DNA of 64,000 bases from an uncultured Pelagibacteraceae bacterium (GTDB lineage: Bacteria; Pseudomonadota; Alphaproteobacteria; Pelagibacterales; Pelagibacteraceae), in the NCBI GenBank assembly GCA_902582315.1, contig CACHRP010000005.1:1-64000 (forward strand). Reading direction: 5' to 3'. The notes beneath the pieces were generated by a model that saw only the letters and a list, made by a program, of their open reading frames with translations, did not search any database and was not told where the DNA came from. The translations under genes and the position numbers were made by a program. Below are positions 40,006 to 40,508 of the stretch, piece after piece. Numbering within the stretch: position 1 is the first letter of the stretch; every line of letters starts with the position of its first letter.

Positions 40006-40033
40006 AATTTAATGAGTTTCCAACATATGTCAA
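40006..40033 (-). promoter_or_regulatory. Putative katG promoter
   Basis: On the minus strand TTGACA (40033-40028) is a consensus -35, followed by a 16-nt spacer and TAAATT (40011-40006). This would start transcription near the GTG codon at 39999, so the mRNA would be nearly leaderless, or another -10 is used. Confidence 0.45.
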
Positions 40034-40037
40034 TATA

Positions 40038-40052
40038 TTAGAATGATTCTAA
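40038..40052. promoter_or_regulatory. ICE-like Irr-binding site upstream of katG
   Basis: TTAGAATGATTCTAA is a perfect palindrome around G. It fits the iron control element described for rhizobial Irr (TTAGAA-N3-TTCTAA core). It lies 5 nt upstream of the candidate -35, a position expected for an activator rather than a simple blocking repressor. The irr gene itself starts 456 nt away. Binding is inferred from the motif. Confidence 0.65.
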
Positions 40053-40094
40053 AGTGCTTTTTTGTCCTACTTTATTAAATGTGAATAATTATTG

Positions 40095-40508
40095 TTATTT
40101 ATTAGAAACTTTAACCAAAACCTCTATTGATTTAATTTTTTTTCCTGGGAGGCTTTTTCTCAATTTTATTTCCTCAACATCTTTATCGTGAAAATCAATA
40201 AGCTCACTAGTAGTCTCGTTATAAAAGTGGTGGTGATTTGTTACATTTGTATCGTAATATGTTTTATCAGAATTTAGTGAAATTTCCTTTATATAACCTT
40301 TGTTCTTAAAGGCATTTATTGTATTATAGATTGTAGCTTGAGATATTTTAATATCTAATTTCTTTTTTAAAATTTTTCGAAGATCATCTATAGTAAAATG
40401 AAAAGTCTTTTTTCTATCAAAAAGAATTTCACACATTTTTAATCTTTGCTTAGTAGATCTTAAGCCTGCAGTTCTTAATTTTTCCTCAAAATGAGTATTA
40501 TTATTCAT
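40095..40508 (-). CDS. irr: Fur-family iron response regulator Irr
   Basis: This 137-residue Fur-fold regulator has a winged helix in the first 80 residues (LRSTKQRLKMCEILF, SQATIYNTINAFKNKGYI). It carries the HHH run (residues 92-94) that marks Irr and binds haem or metal. Irr controls haem and iron genes and, in rhizobia, oxidative-stress genes. It stands between katG (downstream, same strand) and divergent fabA. The irr/fabA neighbourhood is common in alphaproteobacteria as I recall it. PerR is a less likely alternative because of HHH. Confidence 0.85.
   Translation of the reverse strand: MNNNTHFEEKLRTAGLRSTKQRLKMCEILFDRKKTFHFTIDDLRKILKKKLDIKISQATIYNTINAFKNKGYIKEISLNSDKTYYDTNVTNHHHFYNETTSELIDFHDKDVEEIKLRKSLPGKKIKSIEVLVKVSNK

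Follow-up and report, generated by a model that had tools for sequence, protein, structure and literature searches.

Does the Irr-branch regulator encoded beside katG in a SAR11 bacterium control that gene and, if so, with which sign, in response to what signal and together with which other targets? Few cell types in the ocean are as abundant as SAR11, and streamlined cells are known for leaving certain functions to their neighbours, with peroxide removal as a standard example. The locus lies in a 64,000-nucleotide stretch of DNA (hereafter, the window). The genome it comes from belongs to SAR11 (Pelagibacteraceae), is 91% complete and amounts to 1,181,295 bases over 23 contigs. The original prediction, made from the window alone, described Irr, an ICE-like palindrome and katG as a local circuit in which Irr activates katG, and proposed looking for the same site at haem and iron genes. 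On comparative grounds, the element it pointed to is real, conserved and functional-looking, and its partners were correctly named; activation and the iron network overreached.

Results

Operator and promoter between irr and katG

The genes irr and katG stand in tandem on the minus strand, 95 bp apart and next door to each other as originally described, with fabA-fabB-fabI divergent from irr (Table 1). The gap holds TTAGAATGATTCTAA, a perfect 7-1-7 palindrome in a promoter beside an Irr gene, which agrees with the ICE (Irr box) consensus TTAGAANNNTTCTAA at 12/12 positions and bears out the proposed match to the rhizobial Irr site core. Read along the minus strand, the order is TTAGAATGATTCTAA, 4 nt, TTGACA, 16 nt, TAAATT, 6 nt and GTG. 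The site does lie upstream of the katG -35, at a distance that we read as 4 nt and not 5 nt as first reported. Because the GTG follows the predicted -10 by 6 nt and there is no ribosome-binding site (39997-40011), the katG mRNA is predicted to be leaderless, which would place the palindrome (site 1) at about -53 to -39.

Table 1. Features of the irr-katG locus, in coordinates of the window
Feature	Position	Strand	Basis and remarks
Small DUF2061 membrane protein, 14 bp after katG	37523..37771	-	PF09834
katG, bifunctional catalase-peroxidase, GTG start at 39999	37786..39999	-	NF011635, 1247 bits; TIGR00198 equivalog, full length, 1158 bits (cut-off 770); both above cut-off; PF00141
Probable katG -10 element TAAATT	40006..40011	-	Consensus inference; invariant in 16 close relatives; 16 nt from -35, 6 nt from GTG
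Degenerate remnant in the position of site 2, TTGGAAACTCATTAAA	40008..40023	-	Gap comparison; low confidence in the window
katG -35 element TTGACA	40028..40033	-	Direct reading; invariant in 16 close relatives
Operator site 1, ICE-type palindrome (TTAGAAT, G, ATTCTAA)	40038..40052		Direct reading; 4 nt upstream of katG -35
irr, Fur-family regulator of the Irr branch	40095..40508	-	IrrA NF045678, 118.9 bits (cut-off 150); PF01475
Weak ICE-like TTAGATAATTTACAA in the irr promoter, 2-3 mismatches	40547..40561		Exact site before irr in relatives from other clades
fabA-fabB-fabI, divergent neighbours of irr	40586..43088	+	Place beside irr kept in many Alphaproteobacteria

The exact palindrome occurs once in the window, against a mean of 0.055 in shuffles, and once in the whole 1.18-Mb genome. 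Within the close clade (16 sequences), nothing varies in site 1, TTGACA, TAAATT or the 6-nt distance to GTG except the palindrome's two central bases. Counted with a motif that permits the TTATAA form of one half-site, and over gaps that are related sequences and not independent trials, the site is exact in 120/123 distinct irr-katG gaps (0.15 in dinucleotide shuffles), 51/76 irr-rubrerythrin gaps (0.1) and 3/4 irr-peroxiredoxin gaps (0). The proposed check of whether the site is absent at katG in relatives therefore came out in the site's favour. In 102/111 site-1 promoters, across all groups including non-SAR11 Alphaproteobacteria, 4 nt separate the site from TTGAC; this shared spacing rules out site 1 as a SAR11 peculiarity.

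Three smaller features complete the layout. The DUF2061 gene is possibly co-transcribed with katG. In another katG clade (L022, L070-L087), an ATG stands 6 nt after TATAAT. A near-ICE pair, TTAGTATATTTCTAA / TTAGAATGATTCAAA, 15 bp apart at 43423-43467 of the window around the point where a methyltransferase-like gene begins downstream in the series after fabI, is probably due to chance.

An interchangeable enzyme slot after irr

The main point beyond the original prediction is that, as judged by gene order, the enzyme slot is interchangeable. Among 80 irr loci on named contigs of the SAR11 genus, the next gene is katG in 73, rubrerythrin in 4 and peroxiredoxin in 3, and the operators are the same. 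Where the contig of a katG-less genome of the genus is readable, the gene after irr encodes rubrerythrin (26) or peroxiredoxin (1); throughout the genus, every next gene that can be read is one for a peroxide-removing enzyme. In the 101 genomes sampled from the genus, katG is present in 51, rubrerythrin in 28 and the two together in none; the earlier remark that catalase is missing from many SAR11 genomes stands to this extent, with the qualification that the katG-less ones usually carry rubrerythrin in the same slot. The genus includes 17 genomes with a completeness of 90% or more, and each of these has one enzyme but not the other (11 katG, 6 rubrerythrin). A further 45 genomes of the order, picked partly for being without irr, include 27 with katG, 14 with rubrerythrin, none with both and 4 with neither. 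Pooled over the 146 SAR11 genomes, katG is found in 78 and rubrerythrin in 42, with a co-occurrence of 0 as taken from a comparison of the two lists. Comparison of these loci shows the enzyme (katG, rubrerythrin or peroxiredoxin) to have been exchanged across SAR11 under a kept regulator and operator.

Parts of this distribution have been documented. A published survey finds katG in most offshore Pelagibacteraceae genera (PMC12636525), and rubrerythrin has been reported in P. ubique and some SAR11 (PMC2864753, PMC5069961, PMC11366302). We did not find the arrangement of irr, operator and swapped enzyme for SAR11 in the open literature searched, and parts of it may already stand in the comparative paper of Rodionov et al. 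2006.

The slot rubrerythrin (L080:4529-4942 and relatives) is a protein of 138 aa with a diiron ferritin-like domain, no cysteines and no rubredoxin domain, so statements about SAR11 rubrerythrin needing an iron-sulphur centre may not hold for this protein. In another alphaproteobacterial family (L319), katG, irr and rubrerythrin are all neighbours; since this locus holds both enzymes, the mutual exclusion of katG and rubrerythrin would be a SAR11 feature and not a rule of the class.

Operator placement and the sign of control

In the window's genus, a second operator (site 2), TTGACAnnnnnTTAGAATCATTATAA, lies over the spacer and the -10. Its right half appears to double as the -10 and would for that reason read TTATAA, not TTCTAA. 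By gap comparison, site 2 is intact as TTAGAATnATTATAA in most other SAR11 clades. The window's clade has a perfect site 1 and a degenerate site 2, and other katG clades have kept site 2 and lost site 1. Where both are present in the genus, they are 30-33 bp apart, mostly 31 or 32, which is about three helical turns. Because the two sites replace one another between clades, they probably share the same regulatory sign. Many relatives also have an operator downstream of the irr TATAAT and 6 nt ahead of the gene's start; in the window this is not clear. The irr-fabA region often holds this auto-site and was for that reason dropped as a negative control.

Our preferred explanation is that the locus would form a self-contained peroxide-defence module, composed of an Irr-branch regulator, one adjacent enzyme and an ICE-type operator set against the enzyme promoter. 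An Irr dimer would bind 40038-40052 and, being up against the -35, would mainly keep RNA polymerase off katG. Peroxide would oxidise Irr by way of haem or iron at the regulator's His/Asp cluster, or an excess of haem would act on it; the promoter would then be released and KatG made when needed. As a whole, this account of a repressed module released by oxidation or haem seems to us probable. We lean only slightly towards release by an oxidative signal over release by iron status alone; since a peroxiredoxin, which needs no iron, can occupy the slot, a peroxide signal would be more economical than iron sparing.

The sign itself is probably repression, and the chief competing reading is the one originally proposed, in which Irr activates katG from a site upstream of the -35 and KatG rises at low haem or iron. 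We consider activation doubtful and would rate it unlikely. The operator lies over the -35/-10 spacer and the -10 in most SAR11 clades, and irr's own site follows its -10 in many, both of which favour repression. The substitution of sites 1 and 2 between clades would flip the sign if they acted oppositely, and, for every species examined by 2012, Irr was reported to act as a repressor when iron is depleted (PMC3413700). The ccpA start of R. sphaeroides has an Irr box ~40 nt upstream of it, and ccpA is slightly higher in an irr mutant under iron limitation (PMC3413700). Activation draws its strength from the 4-nt spacing to the -35, which is fixed across the class and suits an activator touching polymerase, and from a description of Irr as capable of either role (PMC10374146). 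It also counts against our preferred explanation that the window's clade is intact only at the upstream site 1, which is a possible place for an activator too, and that the regulator scores below the curated cut-off of the Irr model.

Expression data bear on both readings. The rubrerythrin transcript of P. ubique, from a gene in the irr slot or elsewhere, was 1.57-fold up under iron limitation (PMC2864753), as activation would have it, and the same study found the abundance of both Irr and Fur unchanged. If Irr accumulates at low iron, this rise opposes simple repression; a PerR-like repressor loaded with iron, or secondary oxidative stress, would account for it as well.

Irr as the probable reader of the site

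In genera without detectable irr, katG lies elsewhere and its promoter is without the site (at least 3 mismatches). In G374, katG is still in the slot beside fabA, irr is gone, the operator is gone as well (5 mismatches) and katG has an internal stop. The irr-negative G380 keeps a near-site, on a contig that begins just upstream of katG, so that irr may be unassembled. The joint loss of operator and irr is the best evidence here that Irr would be the protein that reads the site. A different iron/peroxide pairing occurs in the irr-less SAR11 genera g2 and g170 (L286:793-1437, L290, L291), where katG directly follows an FTR1-family iron permease gene, with no ICE.

The same losses weigh on the alternative that another Fur-family protein, a second Fur/Mur-like paralogue, is the real ligand and irr a passenger. 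Such a paralogue, ~30% identical to Irr, is present in many SAR11 genomes, boxes of the Fur family resemble each other, and a Fur-type GATAATAATTATC lies just upstream of the ICE in some rubrerythrin promoters of the SAR11 family f147. The operator is nevertheless missing from the katG promoters of the irr-less genera and G374, is almost confined to positions beside irr or ahead of irr itself, and has the sequence of an established Irr box, not a Fur box; we judge this alternative improbable. With adjacency, operator, its fixed position, enzyme exchange and the absence of the operator without irr all demonstrated by comparison of genomes, the local Irr-katG circuit of the original prediction is well supported as a conserved unit whose irr-less relatives also lack the site, and Irr very likely binds the site and controls katG.

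How far does this control extend? We searched the window's genome by pattern and by stretch and read every place with at most one mismatch to the ICE, a search outside which degenerate sites fall. There are 26 such places; most lie inside genes, and no iron or haem gene has one. Besides the one at katG, the non-genic places comprise one in a convergent gap, one in the gap before an ABC transporter binding-protein gene, two where the window's fab cluster ends and one in the gap next to a 133-aa gene. At two mismatches, the true pattern gave 356 matches and a reversed control 500; since the control exceeds the true pattern, such loose matches are attributable to chance. The composite TTGACN{4,12}TTAGAANNNTTATA occurs 26 times in 61 genomes of the genus, 25 of them at the slot after irr, against 4 for the reversed control pattern. 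Membership of the site in a genome-wide haem/iron ICE regulon of the kind defined by Irr and ICE in Rhizobiales (PMC3413700) is accordingly rejected as very improbable, and the expectation that haem and iron genes would share the site fails. The apparent range of SAR11 Irr is its own gene and one neighbouring gene.

Identity and metal site of the regulator

The Irr models are the best family match to the window protein, yet both score below their curated cut-offs (IrrA, 118.9 bits against 150; Irr, 110.2 against 170), and it is for this reason that we name it Irr-branch and not an equivalog. Syntenic irr genes of other Alphaproteobacteria mostly pass the Irr cut-offs (198-209 bits); the SAR11 ones fall below. 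PerR and Fur models give 71.5 bits or less, with PerRA at 71.5 against a cut-off of 200. The protein is best called an Irr-branch regulator of the Fur family by these scores, neither a certified equivalog nor filed as PerR. Its genomic place is that of Irr: fab genes and rubrerythrin lie beside irr in distant Alphaproteobacteria, and fab genes lie beside it in the window.

Across 129 distinct SAR11 proteins, the His cluster H92-H94 has H92 and H94 invariant and H93 at 98%, and H37, D86, H92, H94 and D105 are invariant in 129/129. These five residues align with H37, D85, H91, H93 and D104 of B. subtilis PerR, which is its five-ligand site, and an Asp at PerR position 104 distinguishes PerR from Fur (PMC4866751). 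The best solved-structure match is 5nl9, a Fur-family regulator, followed by B. subtilis PerR. No CXXC occurs in the 53 Irr proteins checked, the window's included. In B. japonicum Irr, iron at the His cluster activates H2O2 and the protein is oxidised, and a Cys-Pro haem motif has been described (PMC4700492); no N-terminal Cys-Pro haem regulatory motif of this type occurs in the window Irr. We do not treat that motif as defining for the whole Irr family. Peroxide sensing of the PerR kind is only a possibility for SAR11 Irr, suggested by the ligand alignment.

Ancestry of the slot

In other Alphaproteobacteria, rubrerythrin follows irr in 21/29 irr loci, usually with the ICE just before the -35, and SAR11 family f147 keeps this irr-ICE-rubrerythrin form. 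In several f147 loci (L255-L257, L259, L260, L262, L263, L265), the ICE before rubrerythrin is immediately preceded by a Fur-type box with the sequence TTGATAATAATTATCAA or one close to it, which suggests double Fur and Irr control of that gene.

The KatGs of the genus form one clade (support 100). That of genus g171 belongs to a different lineage, common to irr-less SAR11 genera, which rules out a single origin of the slot katG; from these protein lineages, katG entered the slot at least twice. The number of enzyme swaps is uncertain, with at least 6 changes forced on a FabA+FabB FastTree and 2 on an Irr tree, both of them trees of genes linked to the slot. Three other alphaproteobacterial families also have katG beside irr, with an exact ICE in L322 and weaker forms 4 nt before TTGAC in L319 and L320. 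Placed in f147, genome G292 (L258) has a Pelagibacter-type irr-katG pair away from the fab genes, no rubrerythrin, and a KatG identical to that of L115 (AH-287-F15); possible reasons are transfer of the pair as a cassette and misplacement of the genome.

Discussion

The SAR11 module shares with the Irr/ICE systems of Bradyrhizobium and Rhodobacter an Irr-branch regulator with a His cluster and no CXXC, a palindromic ICE at the target promoter and targets in peroxide defence (mbfA and ccpA in R. sphaeroides, PMC3413700). It differs in that the adjacent enzyme gene, here katG, is its one apparent target apart from irr itself in many clades; the site is absent from iron and haem genes, and the Cys-Pro haem motif is lacking. 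With the irr-ICE-rubrerythrin loci of other Alphaproteobacteria it has in common the regulator, the ICE 4 nt before TTGAC and the place beside the fab genes, whereas SAR11 has katG or peroxiredoxin in exchange and, in most clades, a second operator over the -10. The PerR-katA/ahpC circuits of Firmicutes and the PerR of Leptospira resemble it in having a Fur-family regulator, a five-ligand His/Asp site with Asp at PerR position 104 and a peroxidase target. However, the SAR11 box is TTAGAATnATTCTAA and the PerR box TTATAATnATTATAA, the SAR11 protein scores far below the PerR cut-offs, and its peroxide sensing is putative.

A further reading, which we advance tentatively and rate as rather less than even, is that SAR11 Irr is a near single-target, PerR-like sensor, which without Cys-Pro would read peroxide at its His/Asp site and repress itself and the adjacent enzyme. 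The regulator and operator would then act as a socket that permits peroxidase swaps without rebuilding control.

For the biology of SAR11, the slot means that catalase-negative members are mostly not undefended, as rubrerythrin usually sits in the same regulated position. The choice of katG versus rubrerythrin offers ecologists a simple two-state genome marker, and specialists in regulation gain a natural series in which the target enzyme has been exchanged and the operator kept.
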